Assembly: GCA_017432285.1 (NCBI GenBank)
Contig: JAFRJM010000043.1
Coordinates: 1-32,715 of the forward strand
Origin: Oscillospiraceae bacterium
GTDB lineage: Bacteria > Bacillota > Clostridia > Oscillospirales > Ruminococcaceae
Length of the DNA: 32,715 nucleotides
Direction: 5' to 3'
Position numbers and translations under genes: made by a program. The notes below the pieces were generated by a model. The model had not been told where the DNA came from. It searched no databases and saw nothing but the letters and a program-made list of their open reading frames with translations. This document shows positions 2,407 to 22,193 of this stretch, one piece after another; position 1 is the stretch's first letter, and each line of letters begins with the position of its first letter.

Positions 2407-3600
2407 TCACTTCTTTTCCACATAGACATACCTGTAAATAAAGAACGTGAGAAGTCCAAAGAAGATAGGTATCACCATCGCAATAAAGAAAGTAGTGTTA
2501 TCTGCTATTATGTTCATGATCGGCGTTGCCAAAAGGAACGCTATCCCTGAAGCAAATCCTCTTGCCGCACTAGCAGAAGAAGAGTTGTTTGGATACTCGT
2601 CACAGGTAAGGACTGTAGTCATAGTAAAACTGCTTCCACTTAGAATACCGCTGATAAACATCAGTACCATCCATATGACCGGTTTGTTCACAATAATACA
2701 GACTAAACTTGACAGTGAGCAGATAAGAGACTGTATTCTGAGATATCTTATTGGATTGATCAGTTTCGCCAAAGGTATGTACAGGAACCGGCTTATCATC
2801 TGTCCTACGGTGTAACAAGTCAGGATGAAGTTGCGCAACGCGAGCGTATATGTCTCCGGTTCGGTAAAACTAAAATATGTCGGCAGCATCGAGCTGAAAT
2901 ATCCATAAAACGCCATAGTGATGCCAGACAGGATAAGAGCAAGCATATTCCTGTTTCTGGCCAGTTCCATAACTGTAATCTTGCCTTCATTGATTTGTTC
3001 GCTTTCTTCTATCCGAACATCAGGCGTTCCCATCAGGAGAATGATGCCAAGATATGAGACAGCAGTGATCATCATAAAGAAACCCACTATCCTGTAGCTT
3101 CCACACCACTGCATCCCGAGATTTCCAAGCACGATAGTGTTGAAAGTCGGCGCAACGGCTCCGGCAACAGCAAATAAGGTATAAAGGATTCCAATATATC
3201 TGCCTCTGTCTTCGCCGTAAAGATCACTGACATAAGCAGTGGTTAGGTTGTCCATCCAATATCCTACCATACCATTTATGCAGTTCACTACCAGATATAA
3301 AGCCATAACTGGTGCAGAACTGATAAGAAGAAGTGAACAGGTCATGATGAGGCTCAGCACAGCGAGCATCTTACCTTTATTGAATCTGTCCCCTATCCTC
3401 ATTATTATGATATTTACCAACAATGTCCCGATGCTCGAAGAGATCGTGAAAAGAGAGGATTCGGTAAGAGATGTGCCATAATGATTGATGATATAAGGCG
3501 CAAGACTGCTGTACATCGATGATGATAAAGAAAACGTAAACATCATGACACAGCAGTAGAACATATATATTTTTATTTTCTGCGCATTGTTTTTTAACAT
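2407..3600 (-). CDS. MFS transporter
   Basis: About 397 residues with twelve hydrophobic segments and the major facilitator loop signature after the second segment (RIGDRFNKGK). It is an inner-membrane secondary transporter; the substrate cannot be read from sequence. The frame stays open to 3657, but ATG at 3600 is preferred because GAGG precedes it by 9 bases and the longer form would start inside a strong hairpin (3623-3664). Its downstream neighbour is a GH2 glycosidase, so a glycoside or the released sugar is a plausible cargo. Upstream is the class II aldolase of the pentose-phosphate operon, separated by that hairpin, so partial read-through from the operon is possible. Confidence 0.85.
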   Translation of the reverse strand: MLKNNAQKIKIYMFYCCVMMFTFSLSSSMYSSLAPYIINHYGTSLTESSLFTISSSIGTLLVNIIIMRIGDRFNKGKMLAVLSLIMTCSLLLISSAPVMALYLVVNCINGMVGYWMDNLTTAYVSDLYGEDRGRYIGILYTLFAVAGAVAPTFNTIVLGNLGMQWCGSYRIVGFFMMITAVSYLGIILLMGTPDVRIEESEQINEGKITVMELARNRNMLALILSGITMAFYGYFSSMLPTYFSFTEPETYTLALRNFILTCYTVGQMISRFLYIPLAKLINPIRYLRIQSLICSLSSLVCIIVNKPVIWMVLMFISGILSGSSFTMTTVLTCDEYPNNSSSASAARGFASGIAFLLATPIMNIIADNTTFFIAMVIPIFFGLLTFFIYRYVYVEKK

Positions 3601-3622
3601 AAGACTAGACCTCAATAAAATG

Positions 3623-3664
3623 AAGTACCTTGCTCGATTTGTTTTCAGATCAGACAAGGTACTT
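3623..3664 (-). terminator. Hairpin between aldolase and MFS genes; terminator or attenuator
   Basis: A perfect 10-bp inverted repeat (AAGTACCTTG / CAAGGTACTT) is separated by 22 bases. On the minus strand it is followed by a loose T-rich stretch (TTCATTTTATT). It begins 10 bases after the aldolase stop codon. The interrupted T-run suggests a weak terminator that would lower expression of the MFS and GH2 genes relative to the upstream operon. Confidence 0.5.
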
Positions 3665-3674
3665 CTTGCAAAAA

Positions 3675-4307
3675 CTAAAACAACTGATTGTAAATCTTTT
3701 TGATTTCTGCTTCGCTCAGTGGTTCTGACCCGCCATGGATCTCAGAAAGAAACACTGTCTTTGCTATACTTTCTGCTGCTTCAGCGCGATTGACTGCCTG
3801 CTCCAAATCATGGCCGACAATCAATGCGCCATGGTTCTTCAACAAGACAGCATGATGTTCTTTTAACAAATCCTGCAGTCCTGCATAGATCTTCTCCGTT
3901 CCGGGCTGACCATAAGGCAGCACCGGTATTTCTCCGAAGATCATCATGAGTCCTGTATATGACTTGGAAAAAACCGGCTTGCCTTGTATAGCATAGGATG
4001 TGAGATAAGGACTGTGAGTATGTACCACTGCCCCAATATCATCCCTCATGGAATAAACAGCTTTATGCATCTTGTACTCAGTTGTAGGGGCAAATATCCC
4101 ATGTACCTGGTTTCCATGAGGATCCATGACAGCAACACTGTCACATGTATATGTGGCTTTACTTTTTCCGGTCGGACTTACATATAAAAGATCATTATCA
4201 AGGACCGACAGGTTTCCCGAAAAAGCATCAACCAACCCTAAAGAATCCATACGTGCCGCAAAGCGAATCATCTGATCAATCACGTCAAAATTGATTTTTG
4301 GCTCCAT
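3675..4307 (-). CDS. Class II aldolase/adducin family; ketose-1-phosphate aldolase
   Basis: A 210-residue zinc-dependent aldolase of the fuculose-1-phosphate aldolase family. Visible landmarks are SGNLS (30-34), SPTGK, the catalytic glutamate E77 in TTEYKMH, the zinc ligands H96 and H98 in VHTHSPY and H159 in KNHGAL. Family members split ketose-1-phosphates into DHAP and an aldehyde. It sits 21 bases after an MtnA-type isomerase, the same pairing used in the 5-deoxyribose and methylthioribose DHAP-shunt pathways (established for R. rubrum, some Bacillus and E. coli). The likely substrate is therefore ribulose-1-phosphate or 5-deoxyribulose-1-phosphate (inference). ATG at 4307 has CAGGAG 9 bases upstream; a TTG six codons earlier has no good site. 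Confidence 0.88.
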   Translation of the reverse strand: MEPKINFDVIDQMIRFAARMDSLGLVDAFSGNLSVLDNDLLYVSPTGKSKATYTCDSVAVMDPHGNQVHGIFAPTTEYKMHKAVYSMRDDIGAVVHTHSPYLTSYAIQGKPVFSKSYTGLMMIFGEIPVLPYGQPGTEKIYAGLQDLLKEHHAVLLKNHGALIVGHDLEQAVNRAEAAESIAKTVFLSEIHGGSEPLSEAEIKKIYNQLF

Positions 4308-4328
4308 ATATAATGACTCCTGCAAAGG

Positions 4329-5393
4329 TCATTCTGCTTCCATCATCTTTTTGAGATTGACGTCGTAAGGCGGATAAACTATTCCCTTCTCAGTAACAAT
4401 AGCAGTGATGAACTCGTGCGACGTCACATCAAATGCAGGGTTATATGCTTTGATCCCTTCAGGCGCCATTCTCTTCTCATACCATTTTTCGCTGATCTCA
4501 TCTTGCGGGCGCAGCTCGATCTTAATGTCATCTCCTGTCGGACAGTTCATATCAATTGTCGATGTCGGTCCGCAGACATAGACAGGTACCCCATAGTTCT
4601 TTGCTACGATGGATAATGTGGAAGTGCCGATCTTATTCGCAGTATCCCCGTTTGCCGCTACTCTGTCGCAACCAACAAGACAAGCATCAATCCATCCGTT
4701 CCTCATGATCAGGGACACCATGTTATCGCATACAAGAGTGACATCGATACCAGCTTCATGCAATTCCCATGCTGTTAGCCTGGCCCCCTGAAGAAGCGGC
4801 CTGGTCTCATCCGCAAACACTTTGAAATTATAGCCTCGATCCTGTCCAAGATACATTGGACCCAAAGCAGTGCCGTACTTAGCTGTAGCTATCGTACCAG
4901 CGTTGCAATGTGTAAGAAGTCCCATTCCCGGTTTGAGCAATTTAAGCCCATTCTCCGAAATAGCTTTGCACATCTCCTCATCTTCATTTCTGATGGCATC
5001 AGCTTCGGCCTTCAGCAGAGCTTTTACTTCACTGACTGTCTTGCTGTAATTGTCTTTAAGGACTTTGTCCATGCGTCCCAATGCCCAGAAAAGATTGACC
5101 GCTGTAGGTCTGGAAGAAGCCAGATAGTCCTTGATCCTTGTTAATTCTGCGCAAAATACATCCATGCTCTCTGTGCAGAAATTTTTGGTTGTGAGGTAAA
5201 GGCCATATGCAGCAGAAATCCCTATTGCAGGTGCGCCGCGGACTCTAAGATAGTATATTGCTTCAAATATCTCCTCAGGTGTTTTCAGGTGCAGATACTT
5301 GGTTTCATTAGGCAAAAGCGTCTGATCCAGAAGTATCAGTTCATCCTTTTCGTCGTCCAGACGAACGGAAATAACGGAATCCACAACACTCAT
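4329..5393 (-). CDS. mtnA-like: MtnA-family aldose-1-phosphate isomerase
   Basis: A 354-residue member of the eIF2B-like isomerase family. It has the full MtnA signature set: VRGAPAIG (51-58), THCNAG with C163, [17 protein letters not shown] near 195-211 and [17 protein letters not shown] with D243. C163 and D243 correspond to the catalytic Cys and Asp of methylthioribose-1-phosphate isomerase. The family opens aldose-1-phosphates to ketose-1-phosphates. No other methionine-salvage genes (MtnB, MtnC, MtnD, MtnK) are nearby. Neighbours are nucleoside phosphorylases and a class II aldolase, so ribose-1-phosphate or 5-deoxyribose-1-phosphate is a more likely substrate than methylthioribose-1-phosphate (inference). 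GGAGG lies 7 bases before the ATG, and the previous gene stops 2 bases upstream. Confidence 0.88.
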
Positions 5394-5395
5394 AA

Positions 5396-6097
5396 TCAAA
5401 CCTCCAGTACTGCGTGCAAAGCAAATTTTACCACTTCATGAAAAGCTTCCTTTGCTTCTTCAGAGCTCATCTTCTCCCCTGTTGCAAGATTTTCAGTAAC
5501 TACAAGAACACCTGCACAAGGTTTATGGAAACGCTGTCCGGCGGTAAATGTCTGATTCATCTCCATATCAAGTGCAACAGCACCTCTTTCAGCAAACTTT
5601 TTGGCTATCTCCATTTCTCCCCTGTGCTCTATAGAAAGAACAGGACCGACTTTAACGGTTTTGCCATCTGCTTTTGCAGTTTCATATATCTTATTAAGTA
5701 ACTCAAAATCTGCAGCTGCCGGGAAAGTCATCCCTCCAAATCTTCTTTTATTGATATTGCTGGTAGTATGCGCAGTCTGCGGAAGAATAATCGTCCCAAG
5801 CGCAATATCAGCTTGCAGTGCTTTGCAGCAATCAACTTTTACGAGCACCTCAGGATCAAATTCCCCGGCAATCTCTACTGCATACATTGCAGCATTGACA
5901 GGTCCGATTCCTTCTCCCTGGAATGTGACGGGAACTCCTTTATATTTTCCCGTACAGCCTTTCATGTTACGGATTTCATTGTAGAAATATACATCTTCCA
6001 GCAGATTCTCTGCTGCCCACTCAACATTGAGAGAGTCATTTGTCAAAAATACAACATCCGCTACATCAGCAGCAGTGCCTGTTAAACATAAGCCCAT
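5396..6097 (-). CDS. Nucleoside phosphorylase-fold protein with altered phosphate site
   Basis: A 233-residue PNP/UDP family paralogue of the preceding gene product; the two align through the N-terminal LLED...YN...R.M.G.TG.YKG block. The residues that bind phosphate in DeoD enzymes are changed: the GDPLR motif becomes NDSLN (N20, D21, S22, N24), and RIGTCG becomes KVDCCK (K87, D89, C90). The nucleoside-contacting M178-E179 pair and R43 remain. The general acid Asp is replaced by E202 in VTENL. It could be a hydrolase (as in MTA/SAH nucleosidase, same fold), a phosphorylase for an unusual substrate, or a non-catalytic partner in a mixed oligomer with its neighbour. Its ATG overlaps the upstream TAA (TAATG), so the two are translationally coupled. 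Confidence 0.8.
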
Positions 6098-6849
6098 TAT
6101 GATCTCCTTTCGCTGTCAATTCTGTGAGCAGTCTCAAGTGCAACTTTCATCATATTTCTGTACGCTGTTTCTCTCTGTGCAAGAGGTGTGTCCTCATCGC
6201 GATAGATCTGGTGGTCACTGCATGTGACAAGCAGTGCAGCGCGGATACCCGGATATTTTGAGACAGCCACGAAAAGCCCTGTCCCTTCCATCTCACCTCC
6301 GACCTGATCATACCCGCCCATCGGGTTGGATATCCACGTCGGAAGCTTGTCTCTTTCCTCATAGAGTGCATCAGTGCAACCAGTAACACCAACATGAACA
6401 GGTATACCGTTCTCCTTTGCACTGTCATACGCAGCCTTTATCAGCTCAAAACTTCCTGTAGGGACAAAGTCGTAATTGCCGAACTCTGGGACAGTATTGT
6501 TTGAAACAGATGTGGAAGCTGTTGACAGGATAGTATCCCCAACATGAACATCAGGATCTCCCGACCCACAGGTTCCTATCCGGATCAGGTTCTTGCAACC
6601 ATAATCCTCTATCAGCTGATAGGCACACTCCATTATGCATGATGTTCCCATACCTGAGCCCTGAACAGATACCTTTGTGCCTTTATAATATCCTGTATAA
6701 CCGAACATCCCCCGAGTAGTGTTGTAGCACACCGAGTCCTCCAAGAAATTCTCTGCCAGATATTTAGCGCGCAGAGGATCCCCAGGAAGAAGGACAGTTT
6801 CAGCGATCGCACCGGGCTCGGTACAAATCATATCTTCTATCAATCTCAT
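6097..6849 (-). CDS. deoD-like: DeoD-type purine nucleoside phosphorylase
   Basis: A 250-residue trimeric/hexameric-type nucleoside phosphorylase. It cleaves nucleosides with phosphate to free base plus (deoxy)ribose-1-phosphate in the cytoplasm. Phosphate-site residues are intact: G23-D24 and R27 in LPGDPLRAK, R46 in TTRGM and R90 in RIGTCG. The ribose/base pair M187-E188 (GGEMEG) and the general acid D212 (CSDH) are also present. The start overlaps the permease stop by 4 bp (ATGA), with GGAGA upstream. The operon context (nucleoside-type ABC importer upstream, MtnA-like isomerase downstream) fits generation of a pentose-1-phosphate from an imported nucleoside. Purine versus pyrimidine preference is family-based inference. 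Confidence 0.9.
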   Translation of the reverse strand: MRLIEDMICTEPGAIAETVLLPGDPLRAKYLAENFLEDSVCYNTTRGMFGYTGYYKGTKVSVQGSGMGTSCIMECAYQLIEDYGCKNLIRIGTCGSGDPDVHVGDTILSTASTSVSNNTVPEFGNYDFVPTGSFELIKAAYDSAKENGIPVHVGVTGCTDALYEERDKLPTWISNPMGGYDQVGGEMEGTGLFVAVSKYPGIRAALLVTCSDHQIYRDEDTPLAQRETAYRNMMKVALETAHRIDSERRS

Positions 6850-7772
6850 TTTTTATCTCCTTTTCGCTTACCCGCTTTCCCAGACAAACTGCTGGAAACC
6901 ACAAGGCCAATCACTGTAACAACATATGGGATCATCGTGACAAATTCTCCCGGAATGCTAAGCGTGCTTAATGTAATGGCTATAGCATCAGCAGTTCCGA
7001 ACAGAAATGATGCCAGTGAGCCTCCTAGCGGAGTGTTCCCCCCCAATGTCGATGAAGCCATTCCAATAAAACCACGCCCGGCAGTCATACCTGACTGAAA
7101 CCAGGATACATAACCCATTGACATAAAGCATCCACCTATGGCAGATATACCGCCTGCAAGGCACATCGCAATCATTTTCATTTTCTGAGAATTTATACCT
7201 ACCGACTCAGCTGCCTGCGGATTCTCTCCCACAAGACGCAGTCTTAATCCAAACTTGGTCCGGAATATCAGGACATGGACAAAAATGACCATTATTACAG
7301 CTATATACGTCAGCAGATAGTGACCTGAAAAGACCGTGCCAATAAAGGGAATGTCCTTAATTATGGGAATATCCCATTTGGGAAGCACTTTGCTTTGAAG
7401 GTCATTGCTCATTCCTTTACTGCCAGTGACTAGATACAATATAAAAATCGTTCCGCCTTGCATCATAAGGTTAAAAGCAACTCCGTTCAACGATTCATCT
7501 GCTTTAAGGACGAATGCTGCATAACCAATCGCAAGAGACAGCAGAACACATCCTATGATCGCCAGAAGGAATCCCAGCCAGGCGCTTTTTGTCCATGTGC
7601 TGAAAAGCACTCCCAACAATGCACCAGTAAGCATCGTGGATTCTACGGCGAGGTTCATTACACCTGCACGGTTAACTATGACCGCAGCCAGCATTGCATA
7701 GATCAAAGGCGTGGTCATTCGTATTATCGTAGCAAGAAATTTCGGTGTGAAGATCAAACTGGCGACATTCAT
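6846..7772 (-). CDS. ABC nucleoside permease (NupQ/YufQ type)
   Basis: A 308-residue integral membrane permease of the BPD_transp_2 (RbsC/LivH-like) family with about 8-10 hydrophobic segments. It opens with LIFTPKFLATIIRMTTPLIYAML and a motif N-R-AGV-NLAVE typical of the second permease in BMP-type nucleoside importers. It also has the family motif G-ENPQAAESVGIN near the middle, the cytoplasmic loop that contacts the ATPase. It overlaps both neighbours by 4 bp (ATGA), so the four transporter genes and the first phosphorylase are one transcription unit. It would form a heterodimeric channel with the next permease. Confidence 0.88.
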   Translation of the reverse strand: MNVASLIFTPKFLATIIRMTTPLIYAMLAAVIVNRAGVMNLAVESTMLTGALLGVLFSTWTKSAWLGFLLAIIGCVLLSLAIGYAAFVLKADESLNGVAFNLMMQGGTIFILYLVTGSKGMSNDLQSKVLPKWDIPIIKDIPFIGTVFSGHYLLTYIAVIMVIFVHVLIFRTKFGLRLRLVGENPQAAESVGINSQKMKMIAMCLAGGISAIGGCFMSMGYVSWFQSGMTAGRGFIGMASSTLGGNTPLGGSLASFLFGTADAIAITLSTLSIPGEFVTMIPYVVTVIGLVVSSSLSGKAGKRKGDKK

Positions 7773-8836
7773 GTTTTATCTCCTCCCTCTGCGTTAGCTG
7801 TTGCTTCACGAACAATCTCTCTCTTCTCCCAATTCCCAAGGAATGCCCTTGCAGAGAGCAGGACAATAACAACACCCTGAATGATCGAAACTATTTCGTT
7901 CTGCACATCAGTCATCCTAGTCATGATATCTGCGCCTACCCTGATATATGCAAGGAAAAATGCACCTATCGGAACGAGAATAGGGTTGTTCTGAGCAAGC
8001 GACGCTATAATGACGCCATCAAATCCGTAACCGGGAAGCGCAAGCCATTTGAATGACTGGTACAATCCAAGAACCTCGCAAGCTCCTCCGATTCCACAAG
8101 CAAGCCCTGCAAGAGCCTGCCCGATAAGGATGGATTTAGTGTTATTGATCCCGGAATATTTTGAATAACCTGGGTTGCTGCCTGTCATTCGCATCCGATA
8201 GCCCCATCTGGATTTGAACAAATAGACCCAGAAAATAATTACAAGAGCAGCAGCAACTAGAAGACCAGTATGCACACGAGTCTTTGGAATAAGGATAGAC
8301 AATCTGGCTTGTTCCTGGAAATCAAGTGACTGAAGCTGACCGGTATCAGGGTTCCTGACAAATACACGAATCATGATAAGGCCTAGATACATCAGAACGT
8401 AATTCATCATTAGCGAAGAAACTACTTCACTTGCGCCGAATTTCAGTCTGCACACTGCAGGTATAAGCATGCAAATCATTCCAACTAGTCCACCTATTGT
8501 AATGCATACCATCGGGTCTATAACCTTAGGCAGATTAAGCTTGACAGCAAAAAGTCCAGCAACTGCTCCTCCAATGAAAAAGCATCCTTCAGATGCCAGA
8601 TTGAAAACACCTGTCCTCTGAATTAGTGACAATGACAATCCTGTAAACAGCAAAGGAAGCATCATCTCAACGACGTTCATCAACCTGCTGAATTTTTTAA
8701 CAGGACCAGTTATAAAATATATGATTGCTTCGACAGGGCTCTTGGATACAAGGAAAATAATTCCTATGGCAACTGCTAAAGCTATAGCAATTGCAAGCAC
8801 TGTGCGAATAATGGTAAATCTCTGGCTAATCCTCAT
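7769..8836 (-). CDS. ABC nucleoside permease (NupP/YufP type)
   Basis: About 355 residues, with a single N-terminal membrane anchor and then the BPD_transp_2 core. The segment RTGVFNLASEG is the first-permease counterpart of the motif in its partner, and TGSNPGYSKYSGIN is the ATPase-contact loop. ATG at 8836 is chosen because GGGAGG lies 9 bases upstream; a TTG two codons earlier keeps the same frame. The gene overlaps the end of the ATPase gene by 11 bp. The location is the cytoplasmic membrane, as half of a nucleoside importer channel. Confidence 0.88.
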   Translation of the reverse strand: MRISQRFTIIRTVLAIAIALAVAIGIIFLVSKSPVEAIIYFITGPVKKFSRLMNVVEMMLPLLFTGLSLSLIQRTGVFNLASEGCFFIGGAVAGLFAVKLNLPKVIDPMVCITIGGLVGMICMLIPAVCRLKFGASEVVSSLMMNYVLMYLGLIMIRVFVRNPDTGQLQSLDFQEQARLSILIPKTRVHTGLLVAAALVIIFWVYLFKSRWGYRMRMTGSNPGYSKYSGINNTKSILIGQALAGLACGIGGACEVLGLYQSFKWLALPGYGFDGVIIASLAQNNPILVPIGAFFLAYIRVGADIMTRMTDVQNEIVSIIQGVVIVLLSARAFLGNWEKREIVREATANAEGGDKT

Positions 8837-10421
8837 CTGCAACTGCCTCCCTTATCTCTGCTTCACTCTGCTCTTTCAATCCAAGCATATAAAGACCAAG
8901 CTCTTCCTCCGTGAGTTTTTTTACATCACGGAAGTAACCCACTATCTTTCCGCCATGCAGAACTATAAGGCTGTCAGACAAGTCCAGGACCTCATTCAGA
9001 TCGGATGTGATAAGAAGGACACCGCAATCATTCTCCCTTGCTTCAATAAGCGTTTTGTGAATCAGTTCAACTGCACCAACGTCAATTCCTCTGGTAGGCT
9101 GGTTAGCTATTATCACCTTAGGAGATACAGACAACTCCCTTGCAACAACAACTTTCTGCATGTTTCCGCCAGAGAGCATCTTAACCGGGACATCAGGAGA
9201 TTTGCAGAGCACTGAAAACCGTTTTATCAAGTCTTCAGCAAGACTGCGGATCTTTTTGCGATCCAGAAACAGTTTGGAGCCTAGGTCCGGATCCTCATTC
9301 CTTATAGAAATCAGATTCTCCTCAATGCTTTCATTCATTGCAGCGCCATAGGTCATCCGGTCCTCATGGATATGAGACATTCCATGCTTTCTTCTACCGG
9401 CTATATCCTCTTCAGTGATATCTTCGCCTTCAAAGAACACTTTACCTGAAAAAGGCGGAAGTAATCCGGTGATAATCTCACTCATTTCTTTCTGTCCGCT
9501 GCCTTCAACACCTGCTACTCCGAGAATCTCGCCCTTGTGCAGGCAGAATGACATATTGTTAACCACATGAACATTGTGCTTGTCATAGAAATTCAGTTCA
9601 TCAACCTTAAGAACCGTTTTCCCCATTGGATGATCTGGCTTCTCGATGTTCTGAATAACATCCCTTCCAACCATTAGTCTGGAAATATCCCTTGCCGTTA
9701 GATCGCTGATATCATAAGTTCCCATGTGGCGCCCTGCACGCATGATCGTCACACGATCACACAGCCGCATGACTTCATCGATCTTATGAGAAATAAAGAT
9801 GATGGTATAACCGTTATCCTTAAGCATCTTTAATTGCTCAAACAATTCGTCAGTCTCCTGCGGAGTCAACACGGCAGTAGGCTCATCCAGAATTATCAGC
9901 TGAGAATCTCTGAACAGGATCTTAAGGATCTCTGTTTTCTGTTTCTGGCAAACCGATATATTGCGAACCAGCTCATCAGCCTTGACATTAAAACCGTATC
10001 TCTCAGCAAGGCTGTTTACTATCTTTATTGCGTTGTCGCGGTCAAAGAACACTCCTTCATTGGGTTCTGACCCAACAACGATATTCTCGGCGATAGTAAG
10101 TGAGTCGGCCAGATTGAAATGCTGATACACCATGCCTATCCCAAGAGCGACAGCGGTCTTAGGAGAATCGATCGTGACTTCCTTTCCATCAAGGGTTATG
10201 GTTCCGGCATCTGGAAGTTCATTTCCGAAAAGAACTTTCATCAATGTGGATTTACCGGCTCCGTTTTCACCCATCAGGGCATGGATCTCTCCTTTTCTGA
10301 CCTCAAAATCGACCTGATTGTTCGCAAGAACTCCGTTTCCGTAGACTTTAGTGATTCCCTTCATACTCAAATAGATATCACCTATCTTAGTATTGGAAAT
10401 CTTTTGGACCTCTTCTTGCAT
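8826..10421 (-). CDS. Double ABC ATPase of nucleoside importer (NupO/RbsA type)
   Basis: A 531-residue protein with two fused ATPase domains. The first has Walker A GENGAGKST at 51-59, a Walker B ILDEPTAVLT and a signature reading ISVCQ. The second has the degenerate Walker A normal for this family (GVEGSGQKE) and a full LSGGNMQK signature, followed by the NQPTRGIDVGA segment. The family energises import of sugars and nucleosides with a BMP or ribose-type binding protein. In the first signature, the usually invariant Gly of LSxGQ is Cys (codon at 9948-9950). GGGAG precedes the ATG by about 8 bases. An inverted repeat lies between it and the binding-protein gene. Confidence 0.92.
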   Translation of the reverse strand: MQEEVQKISNTKIGDIYLSMKGITKVYGNGVLANNQVDFEVRKGEIHALMGENGAGKSTLMKVLFGNELPDAGTITLDGKEVTIDSPKTAVALGIGMVYQHFNLADSLTIAENIVVGSEPNEGVFFDRDNAIKIVNSLAERYGFNVKADELVRNISVCQKQKTEILKILFRDSQLIILDEPTAVLTPQETDELFEQLKMLKDNGYTIIFISHKIDEVMRLCDRVTIMRAGRHMGTYDISDLTARDISRLMVGRDVIQNIEKPDHPMGKTVLKVDELNFYDKHNVHVVNNMSFCLHKGEILGVAGVEGSGQKEMSEIITGLLPPFSGKVFFEGEDITEEDIAGRRKHGMSHIHEDRMTYGAAMNESIEENLISIRNEDPDLGSKLFLDRKKIRSLAEDLIKRFSVLCKSPDVPVKMLSGGNMQKVVVARELSVSPKVIIANQPTRGIDVGAVELIHKTLIEARENDCGVLLITSDLNEVLDLSDSLIVLHGGKIVGYFRDVKKLTEEELGLYMLGLKEQSEAEIREAVADED

Positions 10422-10439
10422 GTTTTTTCTCCCACTGTA

Positions 10440-10478
10440 ACTCTATAGAAGAGACCGATCAGGCCTCTTCTATAGAGT
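10440..10478 (-). other. Strong intergenic hairpin between lipoprotein and ATPase genes
   Basis: Arms of 13 perfect base pairs (10441-10453 with 10465-10477, extended by one A-T pair) close an 11-base loop. No T-run follows on either strand, so this is not a standard intrinsic terminator. Placed 25 bases after the binding-protein stop codon, it could protect the 3' end of the lipoprotein message and cause higher binding-protein than ATPase output, a common arrangement in ABC importer operons (inference). Confidence 0.6.
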
Positions 10479-10502
10479 AAAAGATATAATAATTAACCTC
10501 GA

Positions 10503-11645
10503 TTAGGGACGTGCTGCATCGATCTTCTCATGGACAACAGCGTCATCTTGGCCATAAGCGCTTTCAACTACGATAGTTCCGTCTTTGATCTTATCGCTGA
10601 GCTCATTGATCTTTTCAAGCATCCATGCAGGAACGTTCTTTTTGGTGAATTCGTTATCTGAGAGGCAGATAACGCCTGATGCTACACCAAGGTTCTCATG
10701 ATGTCCGAAAACATCCTCACCGTTCATATAGCGGGTAGCAACGTCAAGCAGGTTGATATCCAAGCTCTTCAGCTGGGAAGCAAGAATCAGGTTTGCTTTC
10801 TCTGGATCATCGGCGAACAGCATTGCCTGGTCGGAGTCTGTACCTATGGAATAAGTATGGTTCTCTTTTCCTGCTTCAAGGCATCCCATTCCGGCACCGC
10901 CGGCACCGTTGTAGACAAGGTCGCATCCTGCATCGATCATAATCTGCGCAAGCTCCTTGCCCTTTGCAGTATCACCAAAGCTGTTGGTGTATGATGTAAT
11001 AACTTTGACTTCAGGATCAATGTCGTGTGCACCCTGGATAAATCCAAGCACGAAGTCGTTGATCAATGTCATATCCATACCGCCGACCCAGCCGACAACC
11101 TTTTCAGGGTTCGCATATTCCATCTCTTCTGTATCTGTTGTGACCATCGCTGCAAGAGCACCGGCGAGATATGCGCCTTCATTTCCTTTGTAGTCTGCTG
11201 AATACACATTGGGATAACCTGCTGTGGAAGCAGCGTCAAACAGAACATAATGCTGATCAGGATATTTCTCTGCGCAGGCTTCAATGTATTCAACATATGA
11301 ATATGATGCAACTGCAATAATATCCCATTTTCCGTCTTCAGACAGGTCTTCCAAAGTCGGGAGCATCTTGGTTTCATCAGAACCAAACTCAATAACTTTG
11401 TATTCACTGCCAATCTCTGTTCCGCAAAGAGCGGCGCCACGTGCAAGTGATTCAGAGAAGCTCTTGTCACTTGCGTTTCCTACGACGACGCATACTGACG
11501 GAGGTTTAGGACCGTCATCTGCCGGAGCAGGAGCCGGGGCCGGAGTGTCCCCGCCAGATGGAGTTGGCTCTTCATTTGATCCGCCGCAAGCTACCAAACT
11601 AAAAACCAGTACCAACGCTAAAATGATTGATAGTAATTTTTTCAT
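10503..11645 (-). CDS. bmpA-like: BMP-family nucleoside-binding lipoprotein
   Basis: A 380-residue substrate-binding lipoprotein. It has a lipoprotein signal peptide (MKKLLSIILALVLVFSLVAC, lipidated C20), a Pro/Ala/Gly/Asp-rich linker to about residue 50, then the BMP (PnrA-like) fold. Typical segments are SFSESLARGA, YVLFDAAS, KGNEGAYLAGALAA and GWVGGMDM. Family members bind purine nucleosides and deliver them to a RbsA/NupO-type ABC importer, which is encoded immediately downstream. AGGAG precedes the ATG. It is divergent from a DeoR regulator across a 123-bp region, so this gene opens the operon. The substrate may be ordinary purine nucleosides or a 5'-modified nucleoside such as 5'-deoxyadenosine (inference). 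Confidence 0.92.
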   Translation of the reverse strand: MKKLLSIILALVLVFSLVACGGSNEEPTPSGGDTPAPAPAPADDGPKPPSVCVVVGNASDKSFSESLARGAALCGTEIGSEYKVIEFGSDETKMLPTLEDLSEDGKWDIIAVASYSYVEYIEACAEKYPDQHYVLFDAASTAGYPNVYSADYKGNEGAYLAGALAAMVTTDTEEMEYANPEKVVGWVGGMDMTLINDFVLGFIQGAHDIDPEVKVITSYTNSFGDTAKGKELAQIMIDAGCDLVYNGAGGAGMGCLEAGKENHTYSIGTDSDQAMLFADDPEKANLILASQLKSLDINLLDVATRYMNGEDVFGHHENLGVASGVICLSDNEFTKKNVPAWMLEKINELSDKIKDGTIVVESAYGQDDAVVHEKIDAARP

Positions 11646-11685
11646 TTTTCTTCTCCTTGTAAAAATGATTGTTTATTTTAATAGA

Positions 11686-11699
11686 CTGGATATCTCCAG
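11686..11699. promoter_or_regulatory. Inverted repeat in the lipoprotein leader, candidate operator
   Basis: CTGGA-TATC-TCCAG is a 5-bp perfect inverted repeat, about 40 bases upstream of the lipoprotein start and between the divergent genes. It is a plausible binding site for the adjacent DeoR-family regulator, but I see only one clear copy and the assignment is a guess. Confidence 0.3.
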
Positions 11700-11733
11700 A
11701 GCTATCTAATACAATAGAAACCAACACAAAAAG

Positions 11734-11742
11734 TGATATAAT
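11734..11742 (+). promoter_or_regulatory. Extended -10 promoter of the deoR-family gene
   Basis: TGATATAAT matches an extended -10 element exactly (TG, one base, TATAAT). No good -35 hexamer is seen at the usual distance, as is common for extended -10 promoters. It lies 26 bases before the regulator's ATG. Confidence 0.55.
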
Positions 11743-11768
11743 GGTCAAAAACGAAAGGAAACAGACAA

Positions 11769-12527
11769 ATGCTGCAGGTATCACGTATAAATGAAATACG
11801 GCGAACGATCCAGAAGAACAAAAGCGTTCTGGTTTCAGATCTTGCCAAAAAGTATGACGTCACTGAAGAAACGATCAGACGTGATCTCAAGCAACTGGAA
11901 AAGGAAGGAATACTCACAAGGGTATACGGCGGAGCTTACAGTCTGGAAGGAGTCCAGAATGATGTCACTGTGCGCCTGAGAAAGAACATCCTTAGTGACG
12001 AAAAAGACGTCATAGCAAACCTGTGTCTTTCTTTCATAAATGACGGAGACTCTATCTTCCTTGACGGGTCAACAACAGCATCCTCGCTAGCACATCTCAT
12101 ATTGGACAAGTCAATATCCGTAGTGACGAACTCTCTGATGATTGCTCAGATAGTTTCAGAAAGCACCTCCATAAATCTGTTTCTGATCGGAGGAAAATAC
12201 AACGGCAATTCAATGACATTCACAGGGACTTCAGCAACAGAAGCAATGAAGGACTACTACGTTGACAAAGCCTTTTTGTCTTGCAGATACATCTCCATGG
12301 ATAAAGGATTAACCGACGCTGACCAGGAACAGGCTCTAATACGCAAGACCGTCATACACAACTGCAACCATTCATTCCTGATCGCAGACCATACTAAGCT
12401 TGGTCATAACTCCTTTTATAAAGTTGCAGATCTGAGAGAGATCAATACATTTATCACCAACAGACCTATTGACAGCGACTGGGCAAGAACAATGGGAAGA
12501 AATCAGGTAGAAGTCATATTTCCCTGA
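11769..12527 (+). CDS. DeoR-family transcriptional regulator
   Basis: A 252-residue regulator. The N-terminal winged helix (about 5-57) contains the DeoR signature VSDLAKKYDVTEETIRRDLKQLEKEG and ends with RVYGGA. The C-terminal domain has the sugar-phosphate isomerase-like sensor motifs (FLDGSTTASSLA, VVTNSL, LIGGKYN, SFLIADHTKLG). DeoR sensors normally bind phosphorylated sugars, so a pentose- or ketose-1-phosphate from this pathway is a likely effector (inference). AAAGGA precedes the ATG by 8 bases. It is divergent from the transporter operon, and its last 25 bp overlap the end of the convergent RuBisCO-like gene, so it is well placed to control both units. Confidence 0.92.
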   Translation: MLQVSRINEIRRTIQKNKSVLVSDLAKKYDVTEETIRRDLKQLEKEGILTRVYGGAYSLEGVQNDVTVRLRKNILSDEKDVIANLCLSFINDGDSIFLDGSTTASSLAHLILDKSISVVTNSLMIAQIVSESTSINLFLIGGKYNGNSMTFTGTSATEAMKDYYVDKAFLSCRYISMDKGLTDADQEQALIRKTVIHNCNHSFLIADHTKLGHNSFYKVADLREINTFITNRPIDSDWARTMGRNQVEVIFP

Positions 12528-13705
12528 TCCATGTATGATCTTGAAATCTCTGTCACAGTACTATTGAAATATCTGCAGTTCTCTGCGAGATTATCACCGT
12601 GGCTGAAAAGTCCGCCGCCGATCAAGAGCATTACATCTATGCCATATGATTCAATCATTCCCGGAACTTTTTCTAATTTCATACCGCCTGCAGGGCATAC
12701 GAACATCGGCTTGATATCGCCGATGTTTTTCTTTCCCCGCTCAGCAATCTCAATGCAATCCTCTTTTGAGAACGTGAATCTTCCCCCATAATTGGGGAAA
12801 ATAGTTGCATCTGCTCCTGCTAGTCTCATAAGATAACCGAAAAACACCGGGAGGGAGATTCCCTGCCGTTCATTTACTGTCATGCTCCCCGAGAATGCAG
12901 GATGTGAAAAGATAGGAAGATGTATATCAGGATCATCAGCAAGAGATTTCATTGCATCAAAACCAACAAGTCCCGGTGCAACCATTATTCCGCCTGCTCC
13001 GCATTCCTGGGCATATAGTGCACGTTCCTTTAGTAGATACATAGGAGCCGTGATATTAGGAACATACAGTGCGTTGTGTCCGGATCTCGCATTTGCCTCC
13101 AAGACAGCGTCTGAACACATTTTCACTCTTTCTTTGAAAGGTGCGTATACCTGATCCGCGAGACCATGGTCATCCTTAATAATGTCTATCCCGTTCTCCG
13201 CAAAAACACCCGCAACCCTAGACAGATTCGCACTGGAGAGTCCCAAGGGCTTCAGCGCAGAGAATAGTACCGGTCTGTCATATACTCCGATCAAGGAACG
13301 GATTCCCGGAATCCCGTATTTAGGACCTTTGAATTGATCCAGTAAAACAGCGGGAAGAGAGATCTCAACAACCTGTACATCCGGTTTCAAGCTGAAGTTT
13401 CCAAAAACGATATTTAGAAATTGAGTGAAATCAGGCAATGAGTTCTCTATAGGAAAACTGACAACAGCTTCATACACTTCATCAATGATTTTGAGGAAAG
13501 ACTCAATGTGACCTACAATCTGATCAACTATCTCTCCGGGAGGAAGCTGATCAAAAGGAAACTCCACTGATTGCTCAACTGTTATTTCATCTGCAACACG
13601 ACGGCAATCCGCTTCAGTGCCAAACAATCTGTAAGTAACACTGAAACGTTCTCCACTGAGCTGACACAGAAGCTTATCGTTTTCAAAATCCGTAAAATGG
13701 TTCAA
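12503..13705 (-). CDS. RuBisCO-like protein (form IV, non-photosynthetic type)
   Basis: A 400-residue RuBisCO large-subunit-fold protein that cannot be a carboxylating enzyme. K152 (in ALKPLGLS) matches RuBisCO K175. K177-D178-D179-H180 (IIKDDHG) matches the carbamate/metal segment K201-x-D203-E204, with Glu replaced by His. H268 (SHPA), PNYGGRF (304-310), PAGG (338-341) and GGG (363-365) are the phosphate and loop motifs of non-photosynthetic RLPs. The second lysine of KPK is missing and the loop-6 GK is replaced by PNYGG. Relatives include the R. rubrum 5-methylthioribulose-1-phosphate 1,3-isomerase and the oxo-isoapionate decarboxylases. Next to nucleoside and transketolase genes, an isomerase acting on a ketopentose-1-phosphate is favoured (inference). 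The TTG start has GAGG 7 bases upstream. It follows transketolase by 20 bp. Confidence 0.88.
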   Translation of the reverse strand: MNHFTDFENDKLLCQLSGERFSVTYRLFGTEADCRRVADEITVEQSVEFPFDQLPPGEIVDQIVGHIESFLKIIDEVYEAVVSFPIENSLPDFTQFLNIVFGNFSLKPDVQVVEISLPAVLLDQFKGPKYGIPGIRSLIGVYDRPVLFSALKPLGLSSANLSRVAGVFAENGIDIIKDDHGLADQVYAPFKERVKMCSDAVLEANARSGHNALYVPNITAPMYLLKERALYAQECGAGGIMVAPGLVGFDAMKSLADDPDIHLPIFSHPAFSGSMTVNERQGISLPVFFGYLMRLAGADATIFPNYGGRFTFSKEDCIEIAERGKKNIGDIKPMFVCPAGGMKLEKVPGMIESYGIDVMLLIGGGLFSHGDNLAENCRYFNSTVTEISRSYMDQGNMTST

Positions 13706-13725
13706 TTTCCTACCTCAATCAAATA

Positions 13726-14733
13726 CTACAGTGCTTCCGGTTTGGCATCACTGAGATCAGCTGGAGTATATGTCTCCTCCAGATCCTCTTCCCTAATCCC
13801 AAAATGTTGTCCGACTATTGATTCAATCTTGGCTACAAGCGCCATTGCGTCTATATCGTTCTCACGCATCAGATATCTGTAGCTTGCCCCATGGACGAAC
13901 ACATCGTTCAGTCCCATCTTATAGAGTTTCTTGCTGCACCCGTATTTCGCCATCTGCTCGGCGATTATCGTTCCTAAGCCTCCAATTATGCTGTGGTTCT
14001 CCAGAACGATACATCCATACTTGCTTTTTTCAATCTTCTCGACTATCTCCGGATGATCAAAGGGCTTAAGTGTAGAAACATGATAGTGCTGTATATTAAT
14101 TCCATGATCCTCCATGGCTGAAACAGCTCTCATCCCCTCTTCGGTGCATATTCCTGAAGTAAGCAAAACTAGGTCATCACCTTCATGAAGAGTTCTTATC
14201 TTTCCCAAAACCATGGGATCATTTTTACTGAACAGCCTTGGTATCTCGCCCCGAAGGACTCTAACATATACAGGACCATCTACAGAATATGCAACATCCA
14301 GGCATGACTCCACGTCAGTAGCATCTCCGCATTCGATAATCGTCATATTGGGAAGAGAACGCATTACTGAGATATCTTCGATAGCCTGGTGAGTAGCTCC
14401 ACCCGGTGTCATAACTCCTGGAAGAAAACCAAACATCTTCACCGGAAGGTTCGGATAAGCTACTGACATAGAAATCTGGTCATATGCCCTGCGGTAAATA
14501 AATACTGCAAAAGTATGAACCATAGGGATCAAGCCTTCTCTTGCCATTCCTCCGGCAAAAGCCAACATATTCTGTTCCGCAATCCCCATAGAAAGGAATC
14601 TGTCCGGATACGCATCACGAAACAGGTGCGCTTCTACTGAGCTGGTAAGGTCAGCAGAAAGAAGGAAAGTATTTGGTTTATCCTTTGCCCATTCAACGAT
14701 GTTTTTAGCATGAACATTCTTTAGAATTTCCAT
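13726..14733 (-). CDS. tktB-like: Transketolase, C-terminal subunit
   Basis: A 335-residue protein with the pyrimidine-binding domain (about 1-165) and C-terminal domain of transketolase. MGIAEQNMLAFAGGMA carries the glutamate (E53) that activates thiamine diphosphate. TPGGATHQAIEDISVMR is the family segment that contacts substrate and cofactor. Split transketolases are common in Bacillota; similar pairs include apulose-4-phosphate transketolase. It needs the N-terminal subunit encoded just upstream, and the two genes overlap by 13 bp. AAGGAG precedes the ATG. Placed with an RLP that may deliver a ketopentose-5-phosphate, it would move a two-carbon unit from that sugar into central metabolism (inference). 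Confidence 0.9.
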   Translation of the reverse strand: MEILKNVHAKNIVEWAKDKPNTFLLSADLTSSVEAHLFRDAYPDRFLSMGIAEQNMLAFAGGMAREGLIPMVHTFAVFIYRRAYDQISMSVAYPNLPVKMFGFLPGVMTPGGATHQAIEDISVMRSLPNMTIIECGDATDVESCLDVAYSVDGPVYVRVLRGEIPRLFSKNDPMVLGKIRTLHEGDDLVLLTSGICTEEGMRAVSAMEDHGINIQHYHVSTLKPFDHPEIVEKIEKSKYGCIVLENHSIIGGLGTIIAEQMAKYGCSKKLYKMGLNDVFVHGASYRYLMRENDIDAMALVAKIESIVGQHFGIREEDLEETYTPADLSDAKPEAL

Positions 14734-15656
14734 CCTGCACTCCTTTCCTTCATCTTCTCATCATAATAATCCCTGTATCTCTGCCACTCTTCTTCGCTTG
14801 AGAACCTGACATAATGAAACTTTGTGCGCTCTCGGAGAATATCCATATGACGACATACATCTGTATCACAGAGTATAAATGTGGGCTTATCCGTCGGTTC
14901 TTCACACGCTTTCTGATATGTAGAAAGTATGAGCGGAATGTCATGACCGTCTATTCTGAATACTCTGCCACCAAACGCGCGAATCCTTTCATCGAACGGC
15001 TCTATATTCATAACTGATGTCATGATGCCGTCGCACTGGTACCCGTTAATATCGATAAACATGAGCATGTTGTTGAGTTTGTGGAAACTCATTGCCTGTA
15101 CTGCTTCCCAGAATTCTCCTGACTGGCACTCTCCATCTGAAAGGAATACAATGACTCTTCCGGAATCACCCCTCCTCTTGCGGGCAAATGCAATGCCAGC
15201 TGCCTGACTAATTCCCTGTCCAAGCGAGCCGGTTGTCACTTCCATACCAGGTGAGTGCTCTGCTCCTATCTGCTCAACAGAAGAACCATCAATGTTGTAG
15301 TTTTCCATGGCAACATTATCGAGTCTGCCTGTCTCGACCAGTGTGGCATACAAAGGAAGTGCGTACTGCGCTGGAGACAAAATGAAATTATCACAATCAG
15401 AGCGCCCATTACCGTTAAAGGAAGCTCCAGTCACAGCAGGATGATCCTTTGATGGAACTCCTGAAAAAGGACCAGGAACAAGAGGATGATCCAGATCATC
15501 TAATTTTAGAATTGATAAATACAGCGAAGCCAAAATATCTGCTGAAGAACATGCCTGACTAAGATACCCACCTCGTCTGTTCAAAGTGTGATCCAGTACA
15601 CGAAGGCGGATTCCGTCTGCAGCATAACTAATTCGGCTGACCAGTCTTTCGTCCAT
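14721..15656 (-). CDS. tktA-like: Transketolase, N-terminal (TPP-binding) subunit
   Basis: A 311-residue thiamine diphosphate-binding half of transketolase. TTGSLGQGISQAAGIA is the conserved cofactor-binding strand. SDGECQSGEFWEA, followed about 20 residues later by IDINGYQCDG, is the metal/TPP motif (usual form GDG...N, here SDG). Also visible are the early RRGGYLSQACSSADILASLY segment and HDIP near 232. The subunit alone is inactive in this family and pairs with the next gene product. It is the first gene of the transketolase-RLP operon, with GGAGG 6 bases before the ATG and a candidate promoter about 40 bases upstream. Confidence 0.9.
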   Translation of the reverse strand: MDERLVSRISYAADGIRLRVLDHTLNRRGGYLSQACSSADILASLYLSILKLDDLDHPLVPGPFSGVPSKDHPAVTGASFNGNGRSDCDNFILSPAQYALPLYATLVETGRLDNVAMENYNIDGSSVEQIGAEHSPGMEVTTGSLGQGISQAAGIAFARKRRGDSGRVIVFLSDGECQSGEFWEAVQAMSFHKLNNMLMFIDINGYQCDGIMTSVMNIEPFDERIRAFGGRVFRIDGHDIPLILSTYQKACEEPTDKPTFILCDTDVCRHMDILRERTKFHYVRFSSEEEWQRYRDYYDEKMKERSAGWKF

Positions 15657-16059
15657 TCAGTCCTCCTTTTTGTTTTATGTTGTTTTTTCCATTTTATCTT
15701 TGTTTGCTCAGCAATGTAAATGACGTAAATAGACAAAATATAAACCACGTTTTCGTTATTTGTTACTGTCATGTCAATATCGTGTGAGTTTATGAATAAA
15801 CTAATAATTCTGTAATTCCCTTTGTTTTCGGCTGTTTACGAGATTGTTCATGTTGCTTTTGTGTTGAAGCCGCCCAAAAAATACAACATTACAATTTAGT
15901 AACAATACAGATGTTTGATTATTAAGCCACAAACAGAAACCAACATAATCCAACATAATCAATTTCTCTTTTTTTGCCTTTCCATGAAAGACAACACGAA
16001 AAATATGATTGCAGAAACTAGGTGTATACTGTTTGGCAAAAAGAACCAAAAATGTTTAA
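15657..16059. other. AT-rich gene-free stretch upstream of the transketolase-RLP operon
   Basis: With the hairpin and tail to 16204, this is about 550 bases without a convincing gene. The part nearest the transketolase gene holds a candidate promoter. A perfect tandem 10-bp duplication (CAACATAATC twice) lies at 15941-15960. The only open frame of any length (15801-16049, 82 residues) starts with TTG, lacks a ribosome binding site and resembles nothing I know. Confidence 0.6.
15691..15720 (-). promoter_or_regulatory. Candidate promoter of the transketolase-RLP operon
   Basis: On the minus strand TTTACA (15715-15720) and TAAAAT (15691-15696) are separated by 18 bases, giving a leader of about 30 bases before GGAGG and the ATG at 15656. 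Each hexamer has one mismatch to the sigma-A consensus. Confidence 0.5.
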
Positions 16060-21700: not shown

Positions 21701-22193
21701 TTGTATCAAATAATAACTCTAAAAGCCAACTAACAACTGTTGGCTCGCTGTTAATCCAATCACATAAAACTGACGCATCATAAACATGCACGGCTTTCCA
21801 GTCTGTATGTTCAGATTCCCATTGCGTTATTGTCTTTTGGAATGCCCAAATCTTCGGAGACACCAAATACAACGATGTTTGACTTTTATCTATACCTAAG
21901 GAATTCTTTGTTCTTTTGGCATAATCCGACTCTATCTTTCGCAGTGAATCATCACTTGTTCCAAACTCCCATACGCTAGTCCCTTCTGTTATATATGCAG
22001 TCCCTGTCACACAAGAAATCACACCGTCGAAGCCATTCGCCCAAATATCATTACCAGAAGGAATACGAAGACTGGTTAAATCACTAGTTCCTGAGATTAT
22101 CAGTTTTTTTATGATAAGCGGAAGTAATCCCTCAAACTGTCTCTTCTTTTCTGTATTCAACGCTTCTAACATGGATGCAGTTATCAATTCCAT
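18702..22193 (-). CDS. Large protein with restriction-endonuclease-like N-terminus, putative defence factor
   Basis: 1163 residues, no signal peptide or membrane segments. Residues 1-165 resemble an N-terminal domain found in large bacterial proteins of about 1200 residues. Landmarks are RIPSGNDIWANGFDGV (D56), TSVWEFGTS (E76), DYAKRT (90-95) and VYDASVLCDWI (about 136-146), a pattern compatible with a PD-(D/E)XK-like fold. The middle has a regulator-like layout (REKEIELL...) but no Walker A motif. The rest is helical repeat-like. I infer a defence role from position only, directly downstream of a type I restriction operon. GGAGGG precedes the ATG by 8 bases. Its base composition is AT-richer than the restriction genes, suggesting separate origin. 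The last codons lie in an 18-bp perfect palindrome (18707-18724). Activity is untested. Confidence 0.7.
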   Translation of the reverse strand: MELITASMLEALNTEKKRQFEGLLPLIIKKLIISGTSDLTSLRIPSGNDIWANGFDGVISCVTGTAYITEGTSVWEFGTSDDSLRKIESDYAKRTKNSLGIDKSQTSLYLVSPKIWAFQKTITQWESEHTDWKAVHVYDASVLCDWINSEPTVVSWLLELLFDTTADFSGIDQAWELFSQKTNPPFSLEMFLENREKEIELLHKSLRQTVIKIKSDSFLESMGFVLGALKQNRELQEKCVVVYDSTTYQTISNLAKNKIIVLNYISSHDIVPSENSVIVCYNKEAISIKPDIQLNPYSKMHFYNAFRKMGINESAAHELYAFCHGNLRALVRRIPGTTNEHMPDWAGIEEKNLLEPIVFLRTINTSIDREIVEKIVNISFETVEEFYKALVQKEDSPIKRIENNYLIVNYEEAWSVLGCSVDDSSFARFHSSVKWLLEEIQKYGLYSGRFGQTHIIKQHVRNLMLNYVYYSFSSDDSTRITDAVTEILEYSLEKRTANLLLENMAVLAEAAPTATLAFIERTLYEESYLLSLFSTNDYPHEYTGVLSAIDELTLYRSTSIRACKVLFSLYQMDYEYKILNSPEESLLTALCLFNTEVALSIQQKRELIIFFNTKDPYHTCKLICMLLGKDSFWKSIRYGEHHYDAQEELTIQEIIETSEFIAGVAFEHLVSCGDVSALQDLLKQYHHLRPDYLGKLMQYFSAGAFIDKDLLPVVFQLKDRVYSIQKYQIETEQPYLQVLKSWENLLLSICSEEERDDWLFYKTYECPSEILLKYKDDDYYEIKEQERIIRINKLRDIYQTRGTSGIIRLIKRMENHSYWGSILAEVIYGDSLFTLVDELALDGKYALIGGMIDAISEDSARTIYSRFSSELKLSILPFISREEYWKLLETEEEKKEYWKHKDMLSFSEERYEQFLIYNPRGLLMYFYERMEKEPLARIEQAKTVINSILSNEGDFTFRVKQDEYYISEIVKRIDSLFYSDEWATATLNLYAKGFVQEMPLSGKVFFFHNPHDYIEYVSANPSRRFSEQWRFSLPANACDEYDVLVYFIETLISSNNVNLAGSIIGKIPGGEDGVRLNERIRELLEHVDNVEFDNAVLSGIINAMEVRTITDGADRKALSDKIEKDASELELFYPHGAYVLRGLSRFYMSEGRQDYIQSEISDY

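Follow-up and report, generated by a model that had tools for sequence, protein, structure and literature searches.

Gene content of the locus

A 32,715-nucleotide contig from a gut-type Oscillospiraceae bacterium (JAFRJM010000043.1, GenBank assembly GCA_017432285.1), analysed here over its whole length and called the window, encodes a RuBisCO-like protein (RLP) next to both halves of a split transketolase and, on the other side of a regulator gene, an operon with a nucleoside-type importer and enzymes acting on nucleosides and sugar phosphates. The pairing of this RLP with a dedicated transketolase recurs in several bacterial phyla and is the main subject of this study. The window is contig C18 of genome G000, which is 2.13 Mb long and 54.6% complete. 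The genes named in an initial annotation, made from the sequence alone, are all open frames at the places it gave, and family scans agree. The locus comprises the following genes.

14721-15656, minus strand: TktN, the N-terminal, thiamine diphosphate (ThDP)-binding half of a split transketolase (PF00456, 68.4 bits; nearest solved chain 6YAK, N half)
13726-14733, minus strand: TktC, the C-terminal half of the split transketolase (PF02779 and PF02780)
12503-13705, minus strand: RLP, kin of the cupin-linked (DeepYkr) isomerases (PF00016, 104.5 bits, over the cut-off)
11769-12527, plus strand: DeoR-family regulator (PF00455, PF08220), which adjoins the RLP gene in L040, L042, and L108 too
10503-11645, minus strand: BMP/PnrA-like substrate-binding protein of the importer (PF02608, 155.8 bits)
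8826-10421, minus strand: ABC importer ATPase (PF00005, two stretches)
7769-8842, minus strand: ABC importer permease 2 (PF02653)
6846-7772, minus strand: ABC importer permease 1 (PF02653)
6097-6849, minus strand: DeoD-type nucleoside phosphorylase (NF004489, 240.9 bits, cut-off 230)
5396-6097, minus strand: DeoD paralogue, degenerate or altered (PF01048, 98 bits, over the Pfam cut-off)
4329-5399, minus strand: MtnA-type aldose-1-phosphate isomerase (NF004326, 452 bits, cut-off 271; TIGR00512, 413.6 bits, cut-off 279)
3675-4325, minus strand: class II aldolase, a branch like that of the dihydroxyacetone phosphate (DHAP) shunt (PF00596, 147.8 bits)
2407-3657, minus strand: MFS transporter (PF07690), the last gene in the order common to L042

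The importer genes together span 6846-11645. The regulator gene was initially described as divergent; by the coordinates this is correct for the importer operon, but with the RLP operon it is convergent and overlaps the last 25 bases. Two DeoD homologues are present, where only one had been recognized.

Conservation of the locus as one unit

The same 13 genes occur in the same order in L042, a locus in a metagenome-assembled genome (MAG) of Candidatus Fournierella pullicola, referred to below as the sister genome G637. Eleven of the genes are 51-73% identical to those of the window (TktN 69%, TktC 73%, RLP 51%, DeoR 52%, BMP 59%, ATPase 65-67%, permeases 62% and 66%, phosphorylase 72%, DeoD paralogue 53%, and MtnA 70%). 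The aldolase and MFS genes reach 30% each and may be replacements and not inherited. The shared gene order is beyond chance, and the two operons are one unit, as had been proposed. A Vallitaleaceae genome (G665) holds parts of the locus on two contigs, one with TktN-TktC-RLP and a convergent DeoR gene (L108) and a separate one with MtnA-BMP-DeoD-ATPase (L186). On L040, a short contig, DeoR adjoins RLP as well. Within the order to which the window belongs the locus is patchy, since relatives of the RLP at E 1e-80 were found in only one of 245 sampled genomes, namely that of the window itself. The gene set is present in Clostridium ljungdahlii, C. drakei, heliobacteria, Chloroflexota, Nitrospirota, Spirochaetota, and others.

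A short motif, CCAACAYAA, was chosen post hoc by comparing two promoter regions of the window. It has three matches in the window (11721-11729, 15940-15948, and 15950-15958; 0.60 expected), all in promoter regions (that of the importer/DeoR pair and that upstream of TktN), and two of them lie 10 bases apart. When the two regions were shuffled, the best 16-base match was reached in 0 of 40 shuffles, the best 20-base match in 20, and the best 24-base match in 3; for L042 the corresponding best matches were reached in 14/40 and 9/40. L042 has a single CCAACAYAA match, in the DeoR promoter region, and no match even to the looser CYAACAYAA occurs in L040 or L108. The motif is a weak candidate for a DeoR box, or operator shared by the operons.

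The RuBisCO-like protein and its partners

A scan of named genomes for the RLP matched 371 relatives, of which the best 80 were taken as loci. Loci from another search were added, and four (L053, L061, L064, and L080) were dropped before loci, MtnA/MtnK, and residues were counted because they lie on the same contigs as L032, L033, L035, and L039. This left 84 non-redundant RLP loci other than the window, the total used below.

Among solved chains the RLP of the window is closest to 3QFW (254.8 bits), which we take to be the Rhodopseudomonas palustris enzyme, followed by 4NAS (194.4 bits), 3FK4 (175.5 bits), and MtnW-type chains (157-173 bits). By this kinship it is an RLP of the DeepYkr type, the 5-methylthioribulose-1-phosphate 1,3-isomerase kind. 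The cupin-linked RLP1 of R. palustris isomerizes 5-methylthioribulose-1-phosphate, according to the accessible part of PMC5893883. Both points bear out the initial assignment to a kind of RLP that moves the carbonyl group of a ketopentose-1-phosphate, and the product of such a shift could feed a transketolase.

Within the phylum, 46 of 398 sampled genomes encode an RLP at E 1e-30. The near group in this sample consists of the window and eight others at 47-55% identity, five of the transketolase-linked (Tkt) type and three of the cupin type; the remainder reach at most 37%. Across the 84 loci, a dedicated TktC adjoins the RLP in 48 and a cupin resembling the one in the MTA-isoprenoid shunt in 10, one (L110) has a distant split transketolase, and 25 have neither. 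Many of these 25 are on short contigs, and the average length of loci lacking a partner is lower. When the 48 Tkt-linked RLPs were compared with the 10 cupin-linked ones, no alignment column separated the groups at above 70% fixation in each, so the two groups probably catalyze the same reaction. K152, K177, D178, D179, H180, and H268 are at least 97% conserved over the set, with no fixed difference by context.

The cupin and the dedicated TktC were not seen together in the genomes tested. The TktC clade is absent from the genomes of all 10 cupin loci searched. Conversely, a cupin orthologue is present in 3/3 cupin genomes (53-100% identity) and absent in all 16 Tkt-type genomes tested; in four of them there are weak matches to the cupin (28-35% identity, the best at E 2e-10). 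No cupin match was found in G000, at 54.6% completeness, or in G637. TktC and cupin thus seem to be two options for the step after a shared RLP reaction. Seven genomes of the loci with neither partner were also searched: the clade TktC is whole on another contig in G680 (75%) and G682 (74%) and partial in G683, G685 has just 29-38% matches, and G681, G684, and G686 have no TktC at E 1e-30.

The dedicated split transketolase

The three transketolase domains (N, pyrimidine, and C; PF00456, PF02779, and PF02780) all score over the cut-off. TktN and TktC fall below all NCBIfam transketolase cut-offs, as expected for single halves. Against the 1-deoxyxylulose-5-phosphate (DXP) synthase model TIGR00204, TktC scores 159.6 bits, below the cut-off of 465.95. 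The ThDP motif reads SDG instead of GDG, a form reported as functional in an M. tuberculosis enzyme in the accessible part of PMC3352088.

The TktC proteins linked to RLP form a clade of their own. Of 45 RLP-clade genomes, 36, including that of the window, contain a clade TktC; the others are 52-73% identical to the TktC of the window, and below them the identity drops to 40% (L110's own) and then to 38% or less. In a tree of 70 TktC rows, the 50 linked sequences lie on one side of a branch with support 100/95; L110 is a long branch of unsure placement. L040, L042, and L059 of Treponema fall into one group with the window (100/99). The window genome has two more TktC-like genes, at 33% and 32% identity.

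The clade is also marked by active-site changes. Transketolase residues are given in E. coli numbering, and we take the E. coli residue roles to apply at the aligned positions; the 20 ordinary split transketolases used for comparison are a selection from the lower TktC matches, not every one. All 20 ordinary enzymes have His100. Of the 47 linked TktN sequences, 42 have Met at this position and 2 have Leu; the window has Gln, L110 has Ala, and one sequence has a gap. The position of His26 is His in 16 of 20 ordinary enzymes (4 gaps) and Tyr in 45 of 47 linked ones (2 gaps). In TktC, His461 (19/20 ordinary) is Leu or Ile in 50/50 linked sequences, and Asp469 (17/20 ordinary) is Gly or Leu in 50/50. 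His473 is kept in all 50 linked sequences, and the presumed equivalent of Glu411 is Glu in 49 and a gap in one. The equivalents in the window are Gln129 (His100) and Tyr31 (His26) in TktN, and Leu104 (His461) and Gly111 (Asp469) in TktC. In the accessible part of PMC7661550, the donor-contacting His100 corresponds to Phe in DXP synthases, and the transketolase mutants H100F and H100L have raised activity with pyruvate. A hydrophobic residue at this place would fit a donor with CH3 or CH2SCH3, not CH2OH, at C1.

Upstream enzymes

The phosphorylase at 6097-6849 keeps the GDPLR phosphate motif. In an alignment with the L042 copy, the paralogue at 5396-6097 has lost this motif, and it scores below every NCBIfam cut-off; it may serve the neighbouring phosphorylase as a second subunit that contributes to a complete active site. 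All 15 other DeoD proteins compared, three of them from the window genome, have an N-terminal His that we take to be the contact to the 5'-hydroxyl in E. coli DeoD. The three phosphorylases linked to this locus have Met7 (window), Leu (L042), and Ser (L186) in its place.

Among the 49 Tkt-type loci, with L110 included, 11 encode MtnA, against none of the 35 others (p 0.002). MtnK is found on 9 of 48 Tkt-type loci, with the L065 and L188 copies over the methylthioribose (MTR) kinase cut-off, and over the cut-off in 19 of the 398 genomes of the phylum sample. MtnP adjoins MtnA in G231 and G050. The RLP-transketolase pair thus goes with enzymes for methylthioribose or 5-deoxyribose in several genomes. 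Two simpler markers were rejected. The presence of MtnA in a genome is of little value, as 304 of 398 genomes have it over the cut-off, and MtnK is not a universal partner, as none of the eight near-group genomes of the phylum sample (five Tkt-type and three cupin-type) encodes it; MtnP (G231 and G050) or DeoD stands in. For the class II aldolase of the window, every NCBIfam match listed is below the cut-off.

Microcompartment versions and other variant loci

The Treponema locus L059/L188 is a version with genes for a bacterial microcompartment (BMC). The frames that run in one direction are ATPase, permease, MtnK, MtnA, a PduL-like phosphotransacylase (PTAC; 217 bits, cut-off 209), an EutN-type protein, an aldehyde dehydrogenase (NF011927, 626 bits, cut-off 403) presumably resembling EutE, an RnfC/Nuo51-type frame, two BMC shell genes, a TktN-TktC fusion, and RLP. 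The fusion is natural, a single 659-residue frame (L188, 7556-9535) in a Treponema MAG, and adjoins the shell genes. No aldolase was found among the operon frames, and four class II aldolase queries had no match in L059 or L188, a search that left out 5 kb of contig beyond L188 and the rest of the genome. If L059 truly has no aldolase, the aldehyde must come from the RLP-transketolase pair, and this operon is the strongest hint that the pair may yield an aldehyde.

In L103 the TktN-TktC-RLP trio is accompanied by a BMC gene, EutN-type genes, and a gene similar to acetaldehyde dehydrogenases (560 of 620 bits, TIGR02518). The contig also encodes MtnA, MtnK, and a class II aldolase 12-17 kb off (L185). 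Part of the shell-gene region is similar to the N-terminal part of this aldolase (54% over 61), so that here the aldolase may be the enzyme that is encapsulated. EutN-type frames occur in L081 along with an aldolase and MtnK, and L112 has an EutN-type match. Behind the trio, L066 carries MetX and cysteine synthase, a hint of methanethiol use.

Proposed pathway and alternatives

The locus would be a catabolic or salvage unit for nucleosides that lack the 5'-hydroxyl, such as 5'-deoxyadenosine, 5'-methylthioadenosine, and relatives, in which the RLP product is cleaved by a ThDP enzyme. We assign this reading a probability of roughly 0.58. From the genes, their order, the dedicated clade, and the active-site changes, all read from the sequence, we infer the substrates, the C2-C3 cleavage, and the fate of the C2 unit as follows. 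The BMP importer would bring in 5'-deoxy- or 5'-methylthio-nucleosides, which the DeoD-type phosphorylase would convert to 5-deoxy- (or 5-methylthio-) ribose-1-phosphate and MtnA to the corresponding ribulose-1-phosphate. Two branches may follow. In one, the class II aldolase would form DHAP and acetaldehyde or methylthioacetaldehyde. In the other, a carbonyl shift by the RLP would produce 1-deoxy- (or 1-methylthio-) xylulose-5-phosphate, whose C2-C3 bond the two-part ThDP enzyme would cut to yield glyceraldehyde-3-phosphate and a C2 unit. The latter could be freed as acetaldehyde, transferred to an acceptor, or, with the methylthio form, become an acetyl unit as methanethiol is lost. More tentatively, and with somewhat less than even odds, the RLP and the ThDP enzyme would constitute an undescribed C-C cleaving module, a lyase of 1-deoxy- or 1-methylthio-xylulose-5-phosphate that replaces aldolase and cupin alike, is widespread in anaerobes, and works inside a microcompartment in some lineages.

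Several observations weigh against the salvage of 5'-deoxy- and 5'-methylthio-nucleosides. A BMP importer and a DeoD-type phosphorylase are usual for ordinary nucleosides. The window TktN has Gln at the His100 place, unlike its closest relatives L040 and L042 with Met, and Gln129 could restore a polar contact. The RLP of the window has changes of its own at conserved sites (V336, which is Pro in 83 of 84, Y130, and Y187). For loci of at least 15 kb the association with MtnA is reduced to 8/24 versus 0/11 (p 0.037), one of the 11 MtnA-bearing loci, L107, matches at just 36% identity, and 53 of 59 RLP-clade genomes encode MtnA over the cut-off, so that with MtnA this common genome-wide only closeness to the RLP counts. 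The missing MtnK of the near group, the 25 loci with neither TktC nor cupin, and the 11 Tkt-type genomes (of 37) in which no deoB was found belong here too, as does the lack of BMC domains (PF00936) and shell genes in G000, G637, and G665.

The initial annotation had proposed that ordinary nucleosides bypass phosphopentomutase, with ribose-1-phosphate converted by MtnA to ribulose-1-phosphate, by the RLP to xylulose-5-phosphate, and then by transketolase, the aldolase giving DHAP and glycolaldehyde. The importer and phosphorylase are typical of such a route, Gln129 could touch a C1 hydroxyl, and a model of haloarchaeal ribulose-1-phosphate aldolases picks up the aldolase, though at 122 of 300 bits and thus far below the cut-off. 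No deoB was found in 11 of 37 Tkt-type genomes, namely the incomplete G000, G665, and nine more. However, 33 of the 45 RLP-clade genomes do encode a DeoB that passes the cut-off. They comprise 26 of 37 Tkt-type genomes, among them the sister genome G637 that carries the full locus, and 7 of 8 of the cupin type, and a deoB-free nucleoside route was rejected as the driving idea. A paralogue tied to the RLP that has lost His100 in nearly all its kin is hard to explain with an ordinary xylulose-5-phosphate donor; the N-terminal His is lost in all three linked phosphorylases, and MtnK and MtnP are the partners in other genomes. We therefore regard the ordinary-nucleoside route as unlikely. From the original interpretation, the unity of the operons and the kind of RLP are retained and the bypass is not; its side remark that a 5-deoxy substrate would lead to DXP is the part that fits best. 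A route confined to sulfur salvage, in which the ThDP enzyme expels methanethiol from 1-methylthioxylulose-5-phosphate (as phosphoketolase expels water) to leave an acetyl unit, and methanethiol goes to methionine, appears less probable still. TktC does occupy the place of the methanethiol-releasing cupin, MtnP adjoins MtnA in two genomes, and MetX and cysteine synthase follow the trio in L066. The cysteine-synthase group, however, is among the clustered neighbours on four cupin loci and one Tkt-type locus (L066), no phosphoketolase family is among the matches listed for these proteins, and microcompartment operons with acetaldehyde-type dehydrogenases suit a deoxy substrate better. That the RLP and a divergent housekeeping transketolase are neighbours in separate pathways is very improbable. 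Adjacency by itself is no proof, and besides the 25 of 84 loci without a partner nearby, four of the seven such genomes searched have no clade TktC; yet the adjacency is kept across several phyla, one TktC clade is tied to one RLP type and absent from the 10 cupin genomes, and other TktC-like genes coexist with it, such as G000:C19 and G000:C2.

Relation to known systems

By analogy, the proposed salvage unit combines a DHAP shunt with the opening half of the MTA-isoprenoid shunt, the cupin being replaced by a dedicated ThDP enzyme. The MTA-isoprenoid shunt of Rhodospirillum rubrum and R. palustris (MtnP, MtnA, DeepYkr RLP, and cupin, as given in the accessible part of PMC5893883) likewise leads from MtnA to this kind of RLP. 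The window differs in having the dedicated split transketolase for the cupin methylsulfurylase, and import with a DeoD-type phosphorylase for MtnP. As a cupin was looked for and not found, the locus by its gene content is not a member of that shunt. The DHAP shunt for 5-deoxyribose or methylthioribose (kinase or phosphorylase, isomerase, and class II aldolase) is similar in that phosphorylase, MtnA-type isomerase, and aldolase share one operon; the window adds the RLP-transketolase branch, which would give glyceraldehyde-3-phosphate rather than DHAP.

The Sulfo-TK pathway (SqwGH), as far as the accessible part of PMC11659671 goes, also pairs an isomerase with a two-gene transketolase dedicated to an unusual sugar and leaves a substituted acetaldehyde. 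Its substrate is different, and SqwGH transfers an ordinary ketol unit and has a changed phosphate-site motif, whereas the enzyme of the window is changed at His100 as well. The microcompartment system described in the accessible part of PMC8217296 resembles L059, L103, L081, and L112, where RLP and transketolase lie near shell-type genes and, in L059 and L103, acetaldehyde-type dehydrogenases. No DeoC is among the scanned L188 frames, and the locus of the window has no shell genes; without PF00936 in G000 or G637, it does not belong to the SPU microcompartments. In a related yet different case, a Synechococcus transketolase takes 5-deoxyribose as acceptor (PMC8102628, accessible part).

Pairing of this RLP with a dedicated transketolase-like enzyme seems undescribed. 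A literature search, with most subscription papers outside its reach, returned no paper linking this RLP type with transketolase. The word "transketolase" has no match in PMC6302742, PMC6079011, PMC10986504, PMC5893883, PMC8217296, or PMC4207490, the fourth and fifth as accessible in part, and the accessible part of PMC7895386 discusses transketolase with true Rubisco and the Calvin cycle.

5'-Deoxyadenosine and methylthioadenosine are by-products that cells with radical S-adenosylmethionine (SAM) enzymes or polyamine synthesis must clear, and the fate of their sugars is known for few organisms. If correct, a route from RLP to a transketolase-like enzyme would add another in vivo role to the only one known for these RLPs according to the accessible part of PMC5893883. 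It would also explain the gene set kept in the clostridia, heliobacteria, and other phyla named above, and it yields directly testable substrate predictions.

Other observations

A recurrent frame of about 332 residues on the RLP loci L094, L102, and L119 resembles a dihydroxyacetone kinase subunit, a name given by eye only. Elsewhere in the window, 28088-30520 is a single frame that combines an ADP-ribosylglycohydrolase domain with an HsdM-type N6 methylase, adjoined by further type I restriction genes. A 1163-residue protein encoded at 18702-22193 adjoins restriction genes and has no Pfam or NCBIfam match at E 0.001.

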